DNA of 26,598 nucleotides, taken from positions 1-26,598 of IMG/VR virus record IMGVR_UViG_3300048996_000145; one strand, 5' to 3'. Source of the stretch: a virus. The notes beneath the pieces are model-generated. The model did no database searches, was not told the origin of the DNA, and was given only the letters and a program-made list of their open reading frames with translations. The position numbers and the translations under genes were made by a program. This document shows positions 11,715 to 21,556 of the stretch, piece after piece (the stretch's first letter is position 1; every line of letters begins with the position of its first letter).

Positions 11715-11999
11715 AACATGCTGCACATAGTTCATGATTTCTTCGACGCAGGACGGTTCACCATTTAACCATTCGTCTAGTTTCACCAGTCGGGTTAACG
11801 CCTCACACATCGCGGTGATGCTGTGGGTGGTGAGGGCAGCGGTCCATCCTCCAAAGTATGCAGCACGCAGCGCTGTCATGATCCTTGGTGCGGTGTTAGG
11901 AAGCCCCTCAAACGGTGGCTCCCAATCAATATATGCCTGTTGCATCTCAGGCGTGACCCTGTGCAGTTCAGCAGGCGGCGGTAATGGGGTGTCGCTCAT
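11673..11999 (-). CDS. Hypothetical helical protein
   Basis: 108 residues from ATG 11999, in an ATGA overlap with the DUF1643 gene stop. It has an acidic/proline N-terminus, then a helical core (RIMTALRAAYFGGWTAAL) of the kind seen in many short phage proteins of unknown role, and an AALSHKKENGQ end that is duplicated in the neighbouring gene. No catalytic motif. Confidence 0.55.
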   Translation of the reverse strand: MSDTPLPPPAELHRVTPEMQQAYIDWEPPFEGLPNTAPRIMTALRAAYFGGWTAALTTHSITAMCEALTRLVKLDEWLNGEPSCVEEIMNYVQHVARAALSHKKENGQ

Positions 12000-12481
12000 G
12001 GTCTCAAACTCCAGGGGAGGATAGGGCTGCTATAAGGCAGCATCAACGGGTGCTTTGGATGGCCACACTTTGCCGGCGGCCCGATGCTAAATGTGGAAGC
12101 GCCCCCAAATATCCTCATGACCTTTTGCCACCTGGCCCTATGAGCTTTGGGCTGCTTGGACACAGGACCCCAGGCCACAATAATCCGGTCGACCAAACAG
12201 GCTATCCTGAACAGGTGGGCGTCATTTTCCGGGCCGATCGGATCATCCACCTTGCCAAGCTCCCGAACGTCCGTAGCCCGATAAGCGAACAGGTTCCCGA
12301 CGATCAGGTGGCCCCACTCGTTGACCCTGCCGAAACCCTGGATCTTGCGGATAGTCGCATCGTCCAGGGTTCCGTCGGCCGTCGAGGGGTTTACCATGAT
12401 GATGGCAGTACACCCGGGCCCAAAGCCCTTCCGGTCAAGGCGGTAGCGGTACTGGCCGCATGAGGAGATAACAGCGCTCAT
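11996..12481 (-). CDS. DUF1643 family protein
   Basis: 161 residues from ATG 12481. It shows the DUF1643 signature in order: IIMVNPSTADGTLDDATIRK, WGHLIVGNLFAYRATD, DPIGPENDAHL, IIVAWGP, and a C-terminal KCGHPKHPLML. The family is common in phages and mobile elements, has conserved polar motifs suggesting an enzyme, and has no settled function that I know of. It leads four overlapping downstream genes in the accessory block. Confidence 0.8.
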   Translation of the reverse strand: MSAVISSCGQYRYRLDRKGFGPGCTAIIMVNPSTADGTLDDATIRKIQGFGRVNEWGHLIVGNLFAYRATDVRELGKVDDPIGPENDAHLFRIACLVDRIIVAWGPVSKQPKAHRARWQKVMRIFGGASTFSIGPPAKCGHPKHPLMLPYSSPILPWSLRP

Positions 12482-12982: not shown

Positions 12983-13411
12983 TTACAGAAAAATAATTTG
13001 CCGCCCGTTGGCTTCCCATTCTGCAATGGCTTCGTTATGTGGATAAAGCCCTCGGCATACGATCCGCCGGCATGAGGTGGCCAGAAGCAATTTGACACAT
13101 GAATGGCAAGGGGTCACGGTGATATAGGCCGTGTCGACCTCCCACGGGTCAGGCAGGAGCACGACAGCGTTCTGCTCGGCATGGATCGCCTGGCACTTCT
13201 CGAGACCTTGGCCTGAGGGATACTTAGCCCCGGGACATGGCGTATCAGTGCAATGGGGGCGGCCTGAGGGTACACCGTTGTAGCCCATGGACAAAACCCT
13301 CCCTCGACGATCGGTCAGGACGCAGCCCACCTCCCGGCGGATGCAAGTTGATCGGCGGGAGATGAGCTCGGCCATGCCCAGGTAGAGTTCGTCGAGGGAG
13401 GGACGGGGCAT
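12983..13411 (-). CDS. Deoxycytidylate (dCMP) deaminase
   Basis: 142 residues. Converts dCMP to dUMP, feeding dTMP synthesis and balancing cytosine and thymine nucleotide pools. Zinc site: HAEQNA (His77, catalytic Glu79) and PCHSC (Cys102, Cys105). The insertion HCTDTPCPGAKYPSGQGLE is typical of ComEB/dCMP deaminase members. The start overlaps the stop of the 57-residue gene (TAATG). It is the last gene of the base-metabolism run, and promoter-like leader A follows its stop. Confidence 0.88.
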   Translation of the reverse strand: MPRPSLDELYLGMAELISRRSTCIRREVGCVLTDRRGRVLSMGYNGVPSGRPHCTDTPCPGAKYPSGQGLEKCQAIHAEQNAVVLLPDPWEVDTAYITVTPCHSCVKLLLATSCRRIVCRGLYPHNEAIAEWEANGRQIIFL

Positions 13412-13584
13412 TATTTCTGTCCTTTCGTTTCATCCTGGCTCATGACCGATGCGGCCAGCGACCTGGCAGACTCGATGATCCAGGCAATATCGGTATCGGT
13501 GTAAGGCCACTCAAGGCCTTCGGTCCTCGAAAGAACCTGGGCAGCTAGGGTAGACATCTTCGAACTAGACTGTTTCTTCGACAC
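13411..13584 (-). CDS. 57-residue hypothetical protein
   Basis: A short gene between methyltransferase and dCMP deaminase. The GTG at 13584 is chosen because AAAGGA lies about seven bases before it; an internal ATG at 13557 lacks such a site. It overlaps the methyltransferase by 20 bases and the deaminase by one. The product is polar with one amphipathic helix (TDIAWIIESARSLAASVM). No family recognised. Confidence 0.5.
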   Translation of the reverse strand: MSKKQSSSKMSTLAAQVLSRTEGLEWPYTDTDIAWIIESARSLAASVMSQDETKGQK

Positions 13585-14962
13585 TTTGCATTCCTTTCAG
13601 TTCGAGGAACAACGGGCATTTGGCCCGGTGCCAACATTCTCCACAAGCACCTGCCTGATCAGTATAACCAGAGAGTCGGCAGAACTCCTCTTTGGCTTGG
13701 GTGACTTTCTCATTGGGCTTGATGACCCGGCGGCCGGTAGCCGCAAAGGGTTCGCCTTCGATATGGTGCTTAATCTGATCGGCCACAAAGCTGCAGAACT
13801 GGATCGGCATGGCCTTGCCAGTCTGCTTAATGCCCCGCTGCCCATCTGAGTCATAGGGTTCCCACACTTCCCGGAACGGACCTTGCTCGTCGTGGTAGAA
13901 GGTAAAGTCATCGGGGAACCCTTGGATACGAGCCCGCTCCTTGATCGTCAAGGGCCTGAAGGCCATTGGGTGGATGGGATTATACCCACCCGACAAGACT
14001 GGGCAGAAGCTATTCCATTTTGGGTTAGTCGTGCCGGGGCGGACTTTCTCCTCGCCGTCGGGGGAATAATATTTGAGGTTCTTCCCCCAGGCCTCGGTCT
14101 CGAACAGCTCGGAGAGTTCACCCCAGCTGGGCCGGTCGCCATAGTGCCGCATGTTGCAATATCGGCCCGGGGTCAGGTCCGGGTTGACATGGGCCGTGTT
14201 CTCCAGCTCGCCTGGGTCAACCCCGATGATGTCGCCGATCACATCGCGGAGGGTCTTTCCGTGCTCGGCCTCGCCGGGTGTGAAGACGAACTTCTCGGAC
14301 TTCAAAGCCCCAACAATGAACATCCGGTTGCGGTGCTTTTGGATATTCCCGTAGCCCCAATTGGAAATCCATTCGGGGTAAAGGTCATAGTCGGGGAGGG
14401 CCTCGACGTAGGCACTCATCGGGAGAACGTCAAACGACGCCGGCAGGTCATCCATGAGGAAGAACCGGGGGCGAAGCTCAGCCATCATCTTCAGGAACAA
14501 TGGGATGTCCGAGGCATCAGAGCCCCGGGAGTCTTTGTATGTGCCCAGGGCGACTGAATGAGACAAGGAAGAAAACCGTCCACACTCCGGGTGGCCCAGG
14601 GCAAAGTCTATCCCGCCTGGCATCATGTTCGCCGGGATGTCGTTAAAGCCCCGGGCCATGAAGGCCCCCGGGAAGTTCTTGATGAATGTGCTCTCCCCTG
14701 CCTGCGACCGGAAGCGGTAATAGTCCCGCCACTCGATATTGCCGACGACTTTGAAACCGAGCTTGTCGCACCCGATCAACATGGAGCCAACACCCGAAGT
14801 CACCCCCAAAGCCGTGAGAGGCCGCATCGAAGGGAGCTCCCCTTCCGGTTCTTGGAAGAGGGGTTGCCGTTTGTATTTGAGCATCCGAGGATTGTCGAGA
14901 AGGCCAAAGCGCTCCTCGTCGCTATCGGCTTTGCGGTGTTGCCATGTTGACGCATTTCCCAT
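13565..14962 (-). CDS. Divergent DNA cytosine-5 methyltransferase
   Basis: 465 residues. C5-methyltransferase motifs are present in order: motif I-like GVTSGVGSMLIGCDKLGF (about 53-70), motif IV GHPECGRFSSL with Cys127 in the place of the catalytic Cys, motif VI replaced by MDDLP (170-174) instead of ENV, motif VIII QKHRNRMFIVG (208-218), and motifs IX/X RPLTIKERARIQGFPDDF and QTGKAMPIQFCSFVADQI. The usual PCQ is ECG here. The C-terminus has four Cys (EEFC, ACGECWHRAKC), a possible metal site. It may methylate phage DNA against restriction, or work in base hypermodification with its neighbours. TAATG overlap with the MazG-like gene. Confidence 0.8.
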   Translation of the reverse strand: MGNASTWQHRKADSDEERFGLLDNPRMLKYKRQPLFQEPEGELPSMRPLTALGVTSGVGSMLIGCDKLGFKVVGNIEWRDYYRFRSQAGESTFIKNFPGAFMARGFNDIPANMMPGGIDFALGHPECGRFSSLSHSVALGTYKDSRGSDASDIPLFLKMMAELRPRFFLMDDLPASFDVLPMSAYVEALPDYDLYPEWISNWGYGNIQKHRNRMFIVGALKSEKFVFTPGEAEHGKTLRDVIGDIIGVDPGELENTAHVNPDLTPGRYCNMRHYGDRPSWGELSELFETEAWGKNLKYYSPDGEEKVRPGTTNPKWNSFCPVLSGGYNPIHPMAFRPLTIKERARIQGFPDDFTFYHDEQGPFREVWEPYDSDGQRGIKQTGKAMPIQFCSFVADQIKHHIEGEPFAATGRRVIKPNEKVTQAKEEFCRLSGYTDQAGACGECWHRAKCPLFLELKGMQSVEETV

Positions 14963-15348
14963 TACACTTTCACTCCGTCCAGGATCGCCCGAATACGGGC
15001 TTCAGGCCCGATCCACCCGGCGGGTTTTACCGCGTCAACGACCCCGTCGAACACCCTCCCCTCTTTCTGGCCGGCCTTCTTTTCGAAGTTGGCATCCATC
15101 ACGGCGGTCACGCAGGCCTCAGCCTGTTCAACCGAAAGCCCAAGGCGATATAGCCCGCCGGCGGAAAAGACGATCGCATCGACTAGGGCATCCACCTGGT
15201 CGACTAAGTCGTCGGCCTCCAAAAGCTCTTGGCCCTCTTCCTTGATGCACCCTGCCAGCCATTCCTTCTCGTTATGGACGAGGGGCATGGGAAGCCTTGG
15301 ATGGATGTTGAGGACGTTCTGATTGAAGTTAAATATACGCCGAAACAT
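14962..15348 (-). CDS. MazG-like / PRA-PH-like nucleotide pyrophosphohydrolase
   Basis: 128 residues, all-alpha NTP pyrophosphatase type. Metal-binding motif: KEEGQELLEA (EExxE) followed by DQVDALVDAIVFSAGG (the second D-x-x-D helix). The C-terminal VMDANFEKKAG and KPAGWIGPE are seen in the phage 'phosphoribosyl-ATP pyrophosphohydrolase-like' branch. It would split a (d)NTP to the (d)NMP and pyrophosphate. Beside a dCMP-type TS homologue and a dNMP kinase, a dCTPase role like T4 gp56 is attractive but inferred. Overlaps the asparagine-synthetase-like gene by 20 bases. Confidence 0.7.
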   Translation of the reverse strand: MFRRIFNFNQNVLNIHPRLPMPLVHNEKEWLAGCIKEEGQELLEADDLVDQVDALVDAIVFSAGGLYRLGLSVEQAEACVTAVMDANFEKKAGQKEGRVFDGVVDAVKPAGWIGPEARIRAILDGVKV

Positions 15349-16645
15349 TACGGAACTCCTTTACAAGTTGTTGGCGGTAGGTTTCGCCGCCATTGATGAC
15401 GGCTTGGGTCTTGAGGGGGTGTTTGGCCCTCTCCAAGATGGGGCGGGGAACGATGTCGCTGTAAGCGAGTTTTAAGGCCTGTTTGGACGTGCGTAAGGCC
15501 CTTGGGGTACGAAGGGCCATGGATATGACCGAAGGCGCTAGAAAGGGCGTCCTAAGCTCGATAGTCGATCGCATCATGACCCTGTCAAGCCGAGGCAGAT
15601 GGTAGAAGGGCAGTTCACAAAAAATATCCGACTGCTGACTATCATATTGGGTTGCCCGGCGATAACCGCCGAAGAGCTCATCAGCCCCGTCGCCAGTCAT
15701 CACGACATGAAAGCCTTCACGGGCCACGGCTTCGGCCAATTGGATTTGGGGGATAAGCGAGCCCAGGTCTAAAGGAGCCTGCATAATTTCGGCCGCTTCA
15801 TCGAGGTCGTAGAAGGCGGTATCGACAATTGACAAAGGGGTTGTCCCTTCAGGCAGGAATTCACTTTCCCCGTTCTCGACCGAGAAGGTCTTGACCTCCC
15901 AGCCCATCTTCTTCAAACTGTAATAGATGATCGAAGAGTCGAGGCCGCCTGAAAGGAGCATGGCCACTGGCCGATCGCCGAGGAGTCGCCTTCGGATGGC
16001 CTGGTCGATAACTTCCCTTAGGTCCAAAGCCGGGTCGACTGAAACCTTGTTCCAGTCCCAATATGCCCGCATCGACACGTTCTCCCCGCCTCGGTCGAGG
16101 AAGAGCCTAGAGCCCGGGTCGAGTTGGCGGATACCTTGGTAGGGCGTCCTGCCTGAATAGTCATACCCGAACTTGATGCAGTTGGCTAGGTAAATCTCAT
16201 CGAAGGCAGGCCGGTTGACGAGCTGGAACATGGGGTCAAGTTCTGAGCAGACAATCCCTTGCTCGGGCCACCAATACAACGGCTTGGTTCCGAGGAAGTC
16301 GGTATAGACCCTGGCCCCCGTTTCCATCACATGGACGATCGACCAAAACCCATCGACGCCGTGGAAGTCTTCGGTCGCGAGCAACTGGGACAGATAGGCC
16401 TTTTCCCCCGCGCCCCCGTGGTTGAATAGCTCCCCGACAAAGGCGGTCATGCTCCGTCCGGAACAGAAGGGCTGGTTCCCTTCATCGGTCCGGTCTTGGA
16501 TTGCCAGGCGTACATGGCCCAGGGTCCACCCAAACCCCTGGGATATCCCCTTAAGGCCGTCGGCGCCCCGATAGCCCATGACGTCCATGGCCTTTTCGAT
16601 CCGGTCAATAGGAAAACCCGAAGGGGCAAGGATCAGCCCGCACAT
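15329..16645 (-). CDS. Asparagine-synthetase-like glutamine amidotransferase
   Basis: 438 residues, shorter than the usual 500-650 of AsnB but with both domains complete. Class II glutaminase: Cys2 at the start (MCGLILA), RGADG (26-30), LGHVRLAIQD, GELFNHGG, and DFLGTKPLYW. Synthetase domain: PP-loop LLSGGLDSS (230-238), MTGDGADELFGGY (316-328), LRTPFLAP and a C-terminal K-rich segment. It takes ammonia from glutamine and puts it on an adenylated carboxylate. Free aspartate is one possible substrate; its place between nucleotide enzymes suggests instead, or also, amidation in base modification. It overlaps the kinase gene by 13 bases. Confidence 0.85.
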   Translation of the reverse strand: MCGLILAPSGFPIDRIEKAMDVMGYRGADGLKGISQGFGWTLGHVRLAIQDRTDEGNQPFCSGRSMTAFVGELFNHGGAGEKAYLSQLLATEDFHGVDGFWSIVHVMETGARVYTDFLGTKPLYWWPEQGIVCSELDPMFQLVNRPAFDEIYLANCIKFGYDYSGRTPYQGIRQLDPGSRLFLDRGGENVSMRAYWDWNKVSVDPALDLREVIDQAIRRRLLGDRPVAMLLSGGLDSSIIYYSLKKMGWEVKTFSVENGESEFLPEGTTPLSIVDTAFYDLDEAAEIMQAPLDLGSLIPQIQLAEAVAREGFHVVMTGDGADELFGGYRRATQYDSQQSDIFCELPFYHLPRLDRVMMRSTIELRTPFLAPSVISMALRTPRALRTSKQALKLAYSDIVPRPILERAKHPLKTQAVINGGETYRQQLVKEFRNVSAYI

Positions 16646-17160
16646 ACAATATCTCCGACAAGTTGATTAAAGTAATCACGGGTCCAGTCAAACCGGAAGA
16701 CTGTGAAGTTAAGCGCCTGGAGGGTTGCCATTTCGGTTTCGTAATTCTCGACAATCCGGGGGTGAAGGTTTTTTACGCCCTCGAGGTATTCCGGGGACTT
16801 ATGGGGTTTGTGCTCCGAAGAAATGTTCATTAGCATCCGAGCCTTATCTTGCAGGCAGCAATAGATGATAATGGGATTGAGAACAGCTAAGCGGACCCGA
16901 AGGTTGGCTTTATCCCGGAGCAAAGGGATACCTAAGGCTTCCTTGTAAATATGGTCGGAGATATATGGGCAACGGTCCAAAATTACCCCAGGAGAAATCA
17001 TAGTCAACCAGGCAATTTCCGCGAATTTGGCGTCCAATTCTTCCAGTGTACCGGTTGCCCCTCCTGTATGGAAAGTCTCCCTCTTCAGCCAAAGGCCCAG
17101 GTCCTTGACTAGGGTGGACTTGCCCGCGCCGTCCGGGCCTTCGACGATAATCGGCCGCAT
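16633..17160 (-). CDS. Thymidylate-kinase-like dNMP kinase
   Basis: 175 residues from ATG 17160, chosen because it overlaps the SNF2 stop (TAATG) and because the P-loop follows directly; the longer frame adds 46 residues with no homology signal. Walker A EGPDGAGKST at about 8-17, and VILDRCPYISDHIY matching the DR-x-x-x-S of thymidylate kinases. It phosphorylates dNMPs to dNDPs. In phages with modified bases a kinase of this kind activates the modified monophosphate (T4 gp1 role). The exact substrate is not visible. Confidence 0.75.
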   Translation of the reverse strand: MRPIIVEGPDGAGKSTLVKDLGLWLKRETFHTGGATGTLEELDAKFAEIAWLTMISPGVILDRCPYISDHIYKEALGIPLLRDKANLRVRLAVLNPIIIYCCLQDKARMLMNISSEHKPHKSPEYLEGVKNLHPRIVENYETEMATLQALNFTVFRFDWTRDYFNQLVGDIVCAG

Positions 17161-18482
17161 TACTTTGCTCCTACTTTTGCCTGGGCATAATCCCGGAGGC
17201 GTTTCAATACTCGGGTCTGGTTCTTCTCTTTGTCCCGGAGGACTTCGAGAATAACTTCGTCGACCGTGTCGGTTGCGACGAGATAGTGGAAGACGCACCG
17301 GGCTTCCTGGCCCTGGCGGTCGATGCGGGCCATGGTCTGGGACATCTGCTCATAGCTGAACGACCCCGAAAAGATGATCATGGTATGGCCGCCATATTGC
17401 AGATTGAGCCCGTGGCCCCCGGATTGGGGGTGGAGGAACATCACAGGGACTTCGCCTAAGTCCCATTGGTTCTGGATCGCCGGCGAGAATTCCACGGCTT
17501 GGGGAATGGCCTTCTTTAACGCAGCCAGTTCATGCTTGAAGTTGTAGACGATGATGACCGGGGAGCCCGTCTGGTCGATGACTTCCAGGGTCGCTTCGAT
17601 CTTCTTGTCGTGGACTTCTTTGGTGTCCCCGTTGTCATCATAGACGAAGCCCGAGGCCACCTGGCGGAGTTTCATCATCGCCGCAGCCGCCGTAGCTGCT
17701 GTCACGCTTTCATTCCCTAGGACGGCCATGGCTTGGTCTTCCAGATCCTTGTAGATCTTGCGGGCATCCCTGGGCAGTGTGATGGGGACTTCGTTGTGGA
17801 CGGGTTCTTCCTTGACCAAGGTGTTCTCGACCCGGAAGATGATGTCCGAGATGAGCTTGGTAATCCGTTCCTCCGCCCCTGGCAGGGCTTCGAATTTGAA
17901 CCCCTGCCAATCAGTCTGTTTGAAGAACCTCTGACGGTATTGATAAAACGATGTGCCCAATCGTTGGCCCAGATCCAGGATGAACACCTGGCTCCAAAGG
18001 TCAAGGAGGGTATTAGGCATGGGTGTGCCCGTGAGGATGAACCGCCGAGGGATTTTGGTCAAATACTTACGCAGGGTTTTGAAGCCTTTGGTCGACGGGT
18101 TCTTGAACAGGGTCGACTCGTCGATGATCAAAGTCTGCCACCCGCCGTGGGCTAGAAGTTCAGGCAGGAGCTCCCGGTTGGTAAGGTAAACATCCACCTT
18201 CTTTGAAATGGCCTGTAAACGCTCCTTGGGGGTACCGCGGACGACCGAGAAGGTAAGGCCCGAGGTATCGGCCCACTTCTTCGCTTCCCGCTCCCATACG
18301 CTTTCAATGACGCGGATAGGCCCTACGATGAGGATCGGCCGGGGAAGATCATCTACGATTGTATGGAGGACTGAGCTCGTCTTCCCCAGGCCCATGTCGA
18401 TGAAAAGCCCGGCACATGGCCTAGCCTTCATGAACTCGACAGCCTCATGCTGGTAATCCCAAAAGGCCTCCCGGCTAAGCAT
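17160..18482 (-). CDS. SNF2-family DEAD-like helicase/ATPase
   Basis: 440 residues from ATG 18482, which overlaps the stop of the TS-like gene (TGATG) and has AAGGAA upstream. Motif I DMGLGKTSS, motif II IIDESTLFKN, motif III LTGTPMPN, and the C-terminal lobe with GGHGLNLQYGGHTM (motif V) and MSQTMARIDRQGQ (motif VI with paired Arg). These are the standard two RecA-like lobes of phage SNF2 proteins. Such proteins sit next to VRR-NUC and PolA genes in many phages and likely remodel replication or recombination intermediates by ATP-driven translocation on DNA. Confidence 0.88.
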   Translation of the reverse strand: MLSREAFWDYQHEAVEFMKARPCAGLFIDMGLGKTSSVLHTIVDDLPRPILIVGPIRVIESVWEREAKKWADTSGLTFSVVRGTPKERLQAISKKVDVYLTNRELLPELLAHGGWQTLIIDESTLFKNPSTKGFKTLRKYLTKIPRRFILTGTPMPNTLLDLWSQVFILDLGQRLGTSFYQYRQRFFKQTDWQGFKFEALPGAEERITKLISDIIFRVENTLVKEEPVHNEVPITLPRDARKIYKDLEDQAMAVLGNESVTAATAAAAMMKLRQVASGFVYDDNGDTKEVHDKKIEATLEVIDQTGSPVIIVYNFKHELAALKKAIPQAVEFSPAIQNQWDLGEVPVMFLHPQSGGHGLNLQYGGHTMIIFSGSFSYEQMSQTMARIDRQGQEARCVFHYLVATDTVDEVILEVLRDKEKNQTRVLKRLRDYAQAKVGAK

Positions 18483-19330
18483 CAACGGTTCCTTAGCTTG
18501 TGGATGAGGTTCGCCCGATCGGGTTCGAACATGTGAAGGGACGTGATGTGCATCGTGAAAGTGCCCGGGGTTATATTGTCCCATGCATCATCCAAATCCC
18601 GGCATTCATCAAGCACCCACATGAGCAGCCGGGCCGTTAGGTAAACATCGTCCCGGAAGTGCCGGACAAAGTCGCATGACCGCATCGGGTAGATGACATG
18701 GAGCCGGCCGTCCCGCTGGATAAAATGGTAGCCTAGGGTACACGGCACTCTGGCCCCGGCCAAGGCGGCAGAGACGTCTTCCGGATAGAAGATCGGAAGA
18801 TATGCCTGCCGGGTGAAAGGGTCTTCGGACAAGACCTGGACAACATCGTCGAGGTCGCCTGGGTAGAACCGGATACCGGCGCATGGCCCAGTTGTGCTAA
18901 AGTCCCCGGGGTTTGGCTTCCCGTTAGGGAGGTGGCCATCGGAGGTTATGCCCGCATACTTGGGCCAATACCTCTCGGCATACGAATGATCGTACTGGGC
19001 GATATTCTCGCCAGGGCGAAGGTGTTCCGCGGCTGATCTAGCATAGGGCCAGATCTTCCACGTCTCGCCAGGGTTGATAGGTTCGCCCGACACCCGTTCC
19101 TGTTCGAAGTGCAGATCAGCCCAAGGAAGATTGGGCTTAATCGCCTCGGCCAGTTCCTTAAGGGTTCTAACCTCGGCAAGGTTGAGGCTGAAGGAGTAAT
19201 TGAAAAGCTCGACCATGGGCGCCGGAGCCTCGGTCGATTGCCATTTGGTCCCATTAACCACGGGGGCAGTCAGGAACCGTTGTTCAATGGTCGAACAGAT
19301 ACGTTCAAATTGGGTCTTGAGCTCGATCAT
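18482..19330 (-). CDS. Thymidylate-synthase-family protein, probable dCMP hydroxymethylase/methylase
   Basis: 282 residues. The C-terminal half follows thymidylate synthase: VPCTLGYHF with nucleophile Cys197 (the usual PCH has Thr at the third place), RDGRLHVIYPMRSCD (phosphate Arg217, RSCD 217-220), then FVRHFRDDVYLTARLL, and the C-terminal MHITSLHMFEPD (His266; Phe268 where TS has Tyr). Aligned to E. coli TS the residue at Asn177 is Asp228. This Asn selects dUMP, and Asp there is the T4 dCMP hydroxymethylase state. The upstream ENIAQYDHSYAERYWPKYAG resembles the TS folate/active-site loop. It most likely makes 5-hydroxymethyl- or 5-methyl-dCMP; the alignment was made by eye. Overlaps VRR-NUC by 26 bases. 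Confidence 0.72.
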   Translation of the reverse strand: MIELKTQFERICSTIEQRFLTAPVVNGTKWQSTEAPAPMVELFNYSFSLNLAEVRTLKELAEAIKPNLPWADLHFEQERVSGEPINPGETWKIWPYARSAAEHLRPGENIAQYDHSYAERYWPKYAGITSDGHLPNGKPNPGDFSTTGPCAGIRFYPGDLDDVVQVLSEDPFTRQAYLPIFYPEDVSAALAGARVPCTLGYHFIQRDGRLHVIYPMRSCDFVRHFRDDVYLTARLLMWVLDECRDLDDAWDNITPGTFTMHITSLHMFEPDRANLIHKLRNR

Positions 19331-19610
19331 TCAGAAATCCTTTCACCTCTTCAATACCTACTAATCTGGCATAATTAAACCCATTATTCTGGAGAAAATT
19401 ACGCCAAGCAACTTGATGAACTGAAACCTTTTTCGTAGTGGGAGCTCCCTTCTTCTTCAGCTCGATGAACCATACCCTTCCACCCGGCAAAAGGACAAGC
19501 CGATCGGGGATGCCGGCATACCAGATCGCTGGCAGCTTAACGCATCGCCCGCCCATAGCCTTAAGGGCCTTGCGGAAGAAGTTCTCGACTGAAATTTCGG
19601 CTTGGGTCAT
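19305..19610 (-). CDS. VRR-NUC domain nuclease
   Basis: 101 residues, a stand-alone VRR-NUC domain of the PD-(D/E)XK superfamily. Key pattern: GGRCVKLPAIWYAGIPDRLV (Asp of the active site), then VWFIELKKKG (E-x-K), then a Gln helix (VHQVAWRNFL). The length is typical for the phage versions. These cut structured DNA and sit with SNF2 and PolA genes; the start overlaps the PolA stop by four bases. Confidence 0.87.
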   Translation of the reverse strand: MTQAEISVENFFRKALKAMGGRCVKLPAIWYAGIPDRLVLLPGGRVWFIELKKKGAPTTKKVSVHQVAWRNFLQNNGFNYARLVGIEEVKGFLNDRAQDPI

Positions 19611-21556
19611 TTCTTGTAGACCTGGCTAATATACCCTTCGGTCACGATCGGAAAGTCTTCTGCCCATTCGCTTGATGTGCAAAGGAGCCGTTCAAACTCT
19701 GCCAGGTCGTTTTTGTTGTTGGCCCCTTCGCCGATGGCTTCGTCGTGGCAATGGCCGGAGATTTTGAACCCCGCCTTGTCGGCGGCGAGCATCCCATCGC
19801 GGAGGATATCCCTGGTCAAAGCTTGGATGATATTCTCGACTAAAGAACCTCCAAAGGTATCAGTCGCTACCCATGAGGACTTCCACGGTGTCCAAAAGTT
19901 GAAGGTCGCCCGGATGTCACCCCACGGCGTCGCCTCGTCTTTGAGGAAGGGCTTGGGGTAGGCGATTGTCCCCGAGGGCATGTCGATATAGAGGATCTTG
20001 AACCCGTTAGCCAGAATTTCGGGTCGGAAGGTAAACCGTCCACACTTCACTATGGTCCACTTGCTGACCGCCCGGATGCAAGCCTGTTCGACCTGGCGCC
20101 AGAACTTAGTGATTTGGGGGACCGAGGCCCGATAGCCATAGACGGCTTCCTTTGCCTCATCCTCGGTGAGGACCCGGCCAAACTTGGCGCATGTGGCCAC
20201 GAACTTCTCCCACCCCATACCATAGCCACACCCCAGGACGAGCTGCTTCCCCATGAACCTTTGGGCCGAATTGACCTGGTCAGGACGCACACTGTAAACA
20301 CGGCCAGCAGCTATCTTGTACGCGTCTTCCTTGTTCCGGTAAGCCTTAAGCAGCCATTCTTCATCGGCCGACCATCCAAGTCCCCTAGGCTCAACTGAGG
20401 CATAGTCGGCCACAAGGAAATGTTCCGGGCTTTCGAAAAACCCCCGGATCGACTGGGCCAAAACAGTCAGCGGCCGACCGAACATGAGACAAAGGTCCTG
20501 GGGACTATCATCGAGGAGCGACAAGGCGACTTGGGGGTTGGCTTCACCCTCGGGCTTTTGGAGGTTGTGCATCTGCACCCCTACCGACGACCAACGCCGA
20601 GTTGATGCCGCGGAGAACATGAACCCTCCCCGAACCCTCCCGTCTTCGCTTACGCAGGCCTTGATGGCTGTAAGCTTCTTCGTGCCTGCCCGGCTAAGTT
20701 CGATCCGATGGTCGAGCAGCTCGACTAAATCGGCATCTAGGCCTGGGCGAGCGGCGAGGGCTTCAACGGTAGGGGCCTGGAGATTAGGCAGGTGGTGACC
20801 CCTTGTCTCGAGGAACTCAAGGGTCTTTTCCCTTTGGGTGGGTCGGCACCCGGCGATGTCAAAGGCCCGTTTTTGAAGGGTGGCTGAATACTCTTCGACG
20901 AAGCCATGGGCTGCGTTCACCCGGTCGACATTCACCGGCATCCCCAACGCATTGATCTTAAAGTCCAGGGCAAAGGCTTCGGCTTCGACGCCGGGCAAGG
21001 GTGGCAAGATCCGGTCGAGTTCCTGCTCAACAACGACGTCCTGGCCGCAATACTCACGGAAGGCCTGGAAGTCCTCAGGCCGCTCGTAAGGGAAAGTCCG
21101 CTTACCGGTTTTGGGGTTTGGCTTGCAAAAGATCTTGATGAGCTCTTCACCCCTGGGGTCTTTGCGGTTGGGCACTTTCAGGGCATGGGCCGCGCCGTCC
21201 AGGGCTCCAGGCAGGGCAAGCACCCTGGCCCTCGCCGCGGTGCAATCCCATTGCATGGGCTTGGGGCTGATGGGCACCTTGAACTGGCGGCATAGGACGT
21301 TCTGCCAAATGACCCATTCGAATTGGGCATTGTGGGCAATCACGCGTGCGCCGGACGCAATTATATCATAGATAGCCTGGAGTTTTTCGGCCGCATCAGG
21401 GGCAGTCAGGTCGATCGTCTGGGGGGTATCGTTATCCCTCGCCCACCCAAGAATAAGGGCCTGGGCCGAGGGGTGCTCGGAGTACCGGAACATCCCGCAC
21501 TCTTTCAAGTCCAGGTCGCAATAGGTCTCAAAGTCAAGGTGGAGCCCCGGCCTCAT
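19607..21556 (-). CDS. DNA polymerase I (family A, phage type)
   Basis: 649 residues; replicates phage DNA. The N-terminal 3'-5' exonuclease shows HLDFETYCD (Asp8, Glu10), VIAHNAQFEW, and YCGQDVVVEQEL (exo III). The polymerase domain has motif A VADYASVEPRGLGW (about 380), motif B QRFMGKQLVLGCGYGMG (about 430; the aromatic residue of the O-helix, Phe762 in E. coli, is Leu) and motif C GHCHDEAIGE (about 601). There is no 5' nuclease domain. Start ATG 21556 overlaps the membrane protein stop (ATGA). Confidence 0.93.
   Translation of the reverse strand: MRPGLHLDFETYCDLDLKECGMFRYSEHPSAQALILGWARDNDTPQTIDLTAPDAAEKLQAIYDIIASGARVIAHNAQFEWVIWQNVLCRQFKVPISPKPMQWDCTAARARVLALPGALDGAAHALKVPNRKDPRGEELIKIFCKPNPKTGKRTFPYERPEDFQAFREYCGQDVVVEQELDRILPPLPGVEAEAFALDFKINALGMPVNVDRVNAAHGFVEEYSATLQKRAFDIAGCRPTQREKTLEFLETRGHHLPNLQAPTVEALAARPGLDADLVELLDHRIELSRAGTKKLTAIKACVSEDGRVRGGFMFSAASTRRWSSVGVQMHNLQKPEGEANPQVALSLLDDSPQDLCLMFGRPLTVLAQSIRGFFESPEHFLVADYASVEPRGLGWSADEEWLLKAYRNKEDAYKIAAGRVYSVRPDQVNSAQRFMGKQLVLGCGYGMGWEKFVATCAKFGRVLTEDEAKEAVYGYRASVPQITKFWRQVEQACIRAVSKWTIVKCGRFTFRPEILANGFKILYIDMPSGTIAYPKPFLKDEATPWGDIRATFNFWTPWKSSWVATDTFGGSLVENIIQALTRDILRDGMLAADKAGFKISGHCHDEAIGEGANNKNDLAEFERLLCTSSEWAEDFPIVTEGYISQVYKK

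Follow-up and report, generated by a model that had tools for sequence, protein, structure and literature searches.

Gene content of the operon

The window, i.e. the whole 26.6-kb stretch of DNA that was analysed, is a linear virus record (IMG/VR record IMGVR_UViG_3300048996_000145) and is perhaps a fragment. It contains one dense operon on the minus strand, spanning positions 21556 down to 12983, with the gene order family A DNA polymerase (PolA), VRR-NUC nuclease, thymidylate synthase (TS) homologue, SNF2-type helicase, dNMP kinase, asparagine-synthetase-like ligase, MazG-like pyrophosphohydrolase, C5-cytosine-methyltransferase (MTase) homologue, a 48-aa open reading frame (ORF) and dCMP deaminase. 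Three of these genes are central to the present analysis. The first (18482..19330, minus strand, as are all genes below) encodes a TS-family pyrimidine-modifying enzyme of 282 residues, which profiles and an AlphaFold2 model predict to be dCMP-specific. The second (13565..14962) encodes the MTase homologue of 465 residues, which sequence motifs, a family tree and a model place in a clade termed here MTase-K. The third (15329..16645) encodes an amide ligase of 438 residues, identified by its domains and motifs as similar to asparagine synthetase, with a glutaminase and an ATP-pyrophosphatase domain.

An earlier sequence-only reading of this DNA had placed the MazG-like enzyme, the TS homologue, a dNMP kinase, dCMP deaminase and PolA in a single minus-strand operon, and this was confirmed. 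The genes that it named were found at the coordinates given, except that the kinase probably starts further downstream, but its gene list lacked the MTase homologue and the ligase, which most change the meaning of the operon, as well as the VRR-NUC, SNF2 and 48-aa genes.

The MazG-like or all-alpha NTP pyrophosphohydrolase (NTP-PPase; 14962..15348) is a candidate dCTPase, matching PF01503 (E 3e-4, just over the Pfam cut-off) and phrog_671 (2e-14); an NTP-PPase of varying type recurs in many relatives. The P-loop dNMP kinase (16633..17298) matches phrog_761, thymidylate kinase (5e-14), and its true start is likely at 17160 (175 aa), overlapping the stop of the preceding gene. The SNF2-type helicase, identified by family matches (17160..18584), likewise has a likely start at 18482 (440 aa) that overlaps the stop of its predecessor. 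Given these two starts, stop/start overlaps occur throughout the operon, as in translational coupling. The dCMP deaminase (12983..13411) matches PF00383 (E 8e-16) and phrog_174 (1e-36). The 48-aa ORF between MTase homologue and deaminase (13411..13557) was read from the sequence, and its stop overlaps the deaminase start; the gap before the deaminase was considered as an RNA element and rejected, as its predicted fold was no better than that of shuffled sequences. At the other end of the operon lie the VRR-NUC nuclease (19305..19610), with a weak Pfam match (E 0.0095), and PolA (649 aa, 19607..21556; family matches), which is expected to incorporate a modified dCTP. Downstream of the operon a DUF1643 protein is encoded (11996-12481), a relative of which is also found in the closest related contig, L019.

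Active sites of the three central enzymes

The TS homologue falls in the TS family by profile as well as by an AlphaFold model (pLDDT 92), which has the TS fold. The protein matches phrog_160 (E 1.4e-25) and PF00303 (E 9e-5), the latter slightly under the curated Pfam cut-off, and a genome-level run of Pfam over the window failed to detect it. Its nearest solved relatives are enzymes acting on cytosine nucleotides, namely the CMP hydroxymethylase MilA and the dCMP hydroxylase AfhB of phage HY126; T4 gp42 was also matched, by profile and by model. AfhB (9iqu, 9iqc) was the top profile match among solved structures and ranked high by fold, and among the entries for L. casei TS the N229D mutant with dCMP scored best. 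The TS of Pamexvirus AAT-1, an Xp12 relative, is a different enzyme, distantly similar to that of the window.

A scan of IMG/VR with a TS alignment yielded 437 relatives, 80 of which were kept. Asp228 aligns opposite Asn177 of E. coli TS and Asn229 of L. casei TS, as the sequence-only reading had it, and is invariant both in a set of 32 relatives and in all 113 relatives compared. The same 113 proteins share the nucleophile Cys197, Arg174, Arg194, Arg217 and His266, and all but one have Asp at the folate position (Asp220, corresponding to Asp169 of E. coli). The position of E. coli His147 is occupied by Ser or Thr throughout (Thr198 in the window protein), and the window protein ends 16 residues past His266, without the C-terminal tail of TS. 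The search patterns contained Tyr117 and, in one of two, Cys197, so these residues were partly selected for; Asp228 and Arg194 were absent from the patterns.

In phage DNA studied by MetaGPA, a TS with Asp177 accompanied by nearby PRA-PH/MazG and dCMP deaminase genes is enriched and marks cytosine modification (PMC8670742). The same genes stand together in the window; the second-stage enzyme of the MetaGPA contigs, a carbamoyltransferase of 5-hydroxymethylcytosine (5hmC), was not seen there. On the basis of Asp228, the nearness to cytosine-nucleotide enzymes and this type of cassette, a cytosine nucleotide is well supported as the predicted target of the TS homologue. The published hydroxymethylase signature consists of Asp or Glu three residues before the catalytic Cys and Ser two residues before Tyr (PMC6400193). 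It is absent here: all 113 relatives have Arg194 where T4 has Asp145, and His or Tyr is found at position 115 (His115 in the window) where T4 has Ser94. For this reason the sequence does not distinguish between hydroxymethylation, methylation and other ways of capturing the methylene intermediate.

The MTase homologue was modelled with a pLDDT of 84 as a C5-MTase fold with the catalytic Cys, and its structure matches include HaeIII, HhaI and CmoX (8yf3). In the family tree it belongs to a clade of its own, apart from both CmoX and ordinary enzymes, with branch supports of 100/100, albeit with a program warning of long branches. Catalytic Cys127 and the Gln and arginines of motif VIII are kept, as is, in nearly all members, the motif-II Glu, the equivalent of HhaI Glu40, which binds the ribose of S-adenosylmethionine (SAM). 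Conservation of these residues makes a SAM-like cofactor likely. The active site nevertheless differs from that of all 15 ordinary enzymes compared, with Glu126 in place of Pro, Asp171 in place of the motif-VI Glu and Lys383 in place of Asn; the ordinary motifs PC, ENV and GN are replaced by EC (within HPEC), DDL and GK. Lys383 aligns with HhaI Asn304 and CmoX Arg350. Since the search patterns used on viral contigs do not contain Lys383, its conservation does not stem from the way in which the sequences were picked. To our knowledge, Lys at the HhaI Asn304 position is otherwise known only from an engineered enzyme. In CmoX, Arg350 holds the carboxylate of carboxy-SAM, and the engineered M.MpeI N374K accepts carboxy-SAM (PMC12783734).

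The ligase contains both domains of asparagine synthetase, i.e. a glutaminase domain with Cys2 and an ATP-pyrophosphatase domain with an SGGLDS loop. All of its relatives retain Cys2, the SGGLDS loop, Glu72 and Lys408, and nearly all retain Arg46 and Asp98. As in CmoX/CmoY systems, a gene for an AsnB-like ATP-pyrophosphatase (SGGxDS) is found beside a C5-MTase homologue. CmoY ligates glycine to 5-carboxymethylcytosine, and a second cluster of ligases, with a glutaminase domain, has been described without an assay (Yang et al., PMC12783734).

The active site of the MTase homologue was found to vary with the presence of the ligase. All 31 ligase-linked MTases compared have Glu or Asp before the catalytic Cys, together with Asp171 and Lys383. 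In the four ligase-less MTases whose motif region is complete, position 126 is Lys or Tyr, and Phe or Tyr stands in motif I where Thr or Ile is otherwise found; the records in which these four lack a ligase are 16 to 51 kb long and perhaps incomplete. As one ligase-less pair (L134 and L137) is nested inside the ligase-positive clade, shared ancestry alone is a poor explanation of this covariation.

Two further features of the MTase family were observed. Nearly all ligase-linked members have a conserved C-terminal Cx11Cx2Cx5C motif (residues 428-449), which is absent in L050, L130, L135 and L136; the spacing of its cysteines hints at binding of a metal or an iron-sulfur cluster. One contig (L140:9944-12103, identical with the contig of L076) has an apparent intein (CIVSGDVPVYT...GFVMKN-C) in its MTase gene, placed precisely at the catalytic Cys and itself carrying an inserted nuclease-like segment.

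Distribution of the module and its sister loci

Scanning viral contigs with the single TS or ligase protein gave no matches, so that alignment-based scans were needed. With an MTase alignment, 42 loci were found in IMG/VR, corresponding to 40 distinct contigs after removal of duplicates, the window included. In the regions examined a TS was present in 37 of these contigs, the ligase in 33 and dCMP deaminase in 32. Three contigs lack a TS: two truncated ones, and L103, which has one elsewhere in the same record (L019). TS, MTase homologue and ligase occur together in about 30 distinct contigs, where the gene order varies and the set persists. The TS with Asp, the MTase homologue and the ligase are a conserved module.

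No member of this module was found among 50,697 phage records, and a nucleotide search of the window against phages gave no match. At the family level neither the window MTase nor its ligase was found in annotated phages, the best matches being ordinary MTases, the ligase of Streptomyces phage TurkishDelight and weaker ligases. The best-covered annotated relative of the MTase, in Haloarcula virus HCTV-16, lies beside a MazG gene and was rejected, being an ordinary C5-MTase with a nearby TS that looks unrelated. Among 85,000 bacterial genomes the MTase had a single strong match, a contig also listed as viral (L145). This 75-kb contig (RPRB01000006.1), from a Myxococcaceae bin, has the same size and match coordinates as the IMG/VR module contig L133, and its assignment to a Myxococcaceae genome is probably a case of mis-binning.

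Sixty-eight sister loci with the same TS lack both the MTase homologue and the ligase, and encode another protein, referred to here as HYP (e.g. L004:6637-7443), which is annotated as 'pyrimidine hmase synthase' in two records. Sister cassettes of Serratia phage Serbin, Pseudomonas phage PMBT14 and Brevundimonas, Gordonia, Yersinia and Streptomyces phages share with the window the kinase, NTP-PPase, TS with Asp, dCMP deaminase and PolA in nearly the same order. They differ in having HYP, just before the TS in annotated phages, at the place that the MTase takes in many module contigs. HYP never accompanies the MTase (0/28 versus 68/83, p 1e-15, uncorrected for relatedness or duplicates), and this weakly TS-like protein is the other candidate for a second-stage enzyme. 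Comparison with TS by hhalign gave a probability of 14% (E 0.002), with invariant Cys, Arg and Asp residues lining up with the TS active site; no match was found in the PDB. Perhaps HYP is a diverged paralogue of the TS; the view of it as a proven one was dropped on account of the weak hhalign support and the lack of a PDB match.

Candidate pathway and alternatives

On balance, we favour by a modest degree the view that the operon works in two or more stages to replace or decorate cytosine in the DNA of the phage itself, a C5 step on dCMP being followed by attachment of a carboxylate and amidation at the DNA level. This view draws on the gene content and its coupling, on the nearness of the TS to cytosine-nucleotide enzymes, on the persistence of the module, from which HYP is absent, and on active-site states that vary with the ligase. 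A precedent is the pair CmoX and CmoY, which produces 5-carboxymethylcytosine and its amide in the DNA of a phage, together with the use of carboxy-SAM by M.MpeI N374K (PMC12783734). The end product is apparently an amide-bearing base and not simple hydroxymethylcytosine. The substrates, products and order of steps that we infer are as follows. In the first stage, the MazG-like enzyme would lower dCTP to dCMP and the TS-family enzyme would, with Asp228, attach a one-carbon unit to dCMP at C5, the simplest product being hydroxymethyl-dCMP. The kinase together with a host NDP kinase would then make the triphosphate, dCMP deaminase would divert dCMP to dUMP and dTTP, and PolA would incorporate the modified base. 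In the second stage, the MTase homologue may flip a cytosine in DNA, attack C6 with Cys127 and attach a group bearing a carboxylate, with Lys383 as its likely anchor, after which the asparagine-synthetase-like enzyme could activate the carboxylate with ATP and amidate it with glutamine-derived ammonia as the presumed amine.

Several observations weigh against this two-stage pathway. CmoA, the carboxy-SAM synthase usual beside CmoX, was found neither in the window nor in any of the 40 records, which may be fragments, although the same search detected it in both controls, Synechococcus phage S-B43 and TurkishDelight; without CmoA, the carboxylate donor may not be carboxy-SAM. The glutaminase oxyanion residue Asn74 is Val in most ligase members, including that of the window. 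If the first stage filled every C5, the MTase homologue would find no free C5 and would have to act on the substituent, or else the first stage would have to be partial. Finally, the module has so far been seen only in uncultured contigs and in no cultured phage.

Work at the substituent has a precedent in an engineered C5-MTase that couples thiols to 5hmC in DNA (PMC7176277). A hydroxymethylated cytosine could by analogy be open to such chemistry, and Glu126, an acidic residue next to the nucleophile, could assist departure of the hydroxyl. A more specific version of the pathway, put forward only tentatively, is a relay: the TS places a one-carbon group on dCMP, the MTase homologue, with a natural Lys in the donor pocket and an origin independent of CmoX, builds a carboxylate on that same substituent in DNA, and the glutamine-dependent ligase amidates it. 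If true, methylene-folate and methyltransferase chemistry would act in turn at the same position, a route of cytosine hypermodification not described before.

The sequence-only reading had compared the operon with hydroxymethylcytosine synthesis in T4, and had suggested a pathway to hydroxymethyl- or methylcytosine. The nucleotide-level activities of T4 (gp42, dCTPase, dNMP kinase and dCMP deaminase) are indeed those of the window set, and both gp42 and the window TS have Asp at the base-selecting site and lack the long C-terminal tail of TS. In contrast to T4, the window lacks the Asp145/Ser94 signature (Arg194 and His115 instead), has the additional MTase homologue and amide ligase, and shows no glycosyltransferase in the fragment at hand. 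The specificity of the TS for cytosine nucleotides was supported and the likeness to T4 was not; plain hydroxymethyl- or methylcytosine is an unlikely end product because the operon also encodes an amide ligase and a C5-MTase homologue whose active site is altered. Such a product would require that the TS homologue be a dCMP hydroxymethylase or methylase and that MTase and ligase be mere passengers, serving anti-restriction methylation and amino-acid metabolism. Asp228, the resemblance to the MetaGPA-modified contigs (PMC8670742) and the sister phages that have the same TS, kinase, NTP-PPase, deaminase and PolA without a ligase agree with this view. The joint occurrence of TS, MTase and ligase in about 30 contigs with varying order, and an MTase active site that tracks the ligase, are not the behaviour of passengers, and with the hydroxymethylase signature absent we consider it improbable.

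A similarly low probability is assigned to a route by MTase and ligase alone, in which the MTase homologue would make 5-carboxymethylcytosine at unmodified cytosines with carboxy-SAM made by the host, the ligase would amidate it, and the TS would serve separately in partial modification or nucleotide supply. In phage S-B43, where CmoA-CmoX-CmoY yield 5-glycyl-carboxymethylcytosine, the MTase homologue likewise adjoins an asparagine-synthetase-like ligase and has a basic residue at the HhaI Asn304 position (PMC12783734). Lys383 at the position that binds carboxy-SAM, the engineered M.MpeI N374K and the described cluster of glutaminase-type ligases speak for such a route. The window system differs from S-B43 in lacking CmoA, in having Lys and not Arg, HPEC and not SPPC, and Asp and not Glu in motif VI, in belonging to a separate clade, in the glutaminase domain of its ligase, and in the presence of a dCMP-type TS in every case. 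Neither SPPC with Arg350 nor grouping with CmoX in the tree was found for the MTase homologue, and the motif-I Phe kept in both CmoX is lost in ligase-linked members. A CmoX with its own CmoA was rejected, as CmoA was not found in the window or in the 40 records, and the constant presence of a dCMP-type TS would go unexplained.

In the cultured phage TurkishDelight (L010) the genes for a CmoX-type MTase, for a glutaminase-type ligase and for CmoA are neighbours, which makes it a culturable case of the second ligase cluster. As in the module, its MTase adjoins a glutaminase-type AsnB-like ligase (gp123-gp125; 26% identity to the window ligase). It differs by the CmoX-type MTase (Arg, PPC, ENV), by the presence of CmoA, and by a ligase that keeps the Asn74 and Glu348 residues, the latter position being Asp in all other members.

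Less probable still is an AfhB-like role of the TS homologue as a flavin-dependent dCMP 5-hydroxylase, the oxygen of 5-hydroxycytosine being subsequently alkylated and amidated. This idea draws on the rank of AfhB among the solved relatives and gains from the fact that the 5-hydroxy-dCMP synthases of phages belong to the TS family (PMC13390438). In AfhB, however, the folate Asp is lost (aligned RSQN), whereas the window family keeps it (Asp220), which speaks against a flavin enzyme of this type, and three positions ahead of the catalytic Cys AfhB and MilA have Glu or Asp (Glu in AfhB, 9iqu) but the window family has Arg. Finally, ordinary thymidylate metabolism, in which the TS homologue would make dTMP from dUMP supplied by the deaminase, is very improbable, since despite a gene set overlapping normal dTTP supply and a Pfam and PHROG name of thymidylate synthase, Asn177 and His147 are replaced throughout the family and the C-terminal tail is missing.

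The module joins two known routes of cytosine modification, TS-family modification of dCMP and DNA modification by a C5-MTase with an amide ligase. The requirements of the published carboxymethyltransferase search, SPPC and Arg350, would have left the MTase-K clade undetected. With this clade the role of Lys at the HhaI Asn304 position can be tested directly in a natural enzyme. If the two-stage pathway is true, it predicts a new amide-bearing cytosine, new DNA-writing enzymes and new protection of phage DNA against restriction.

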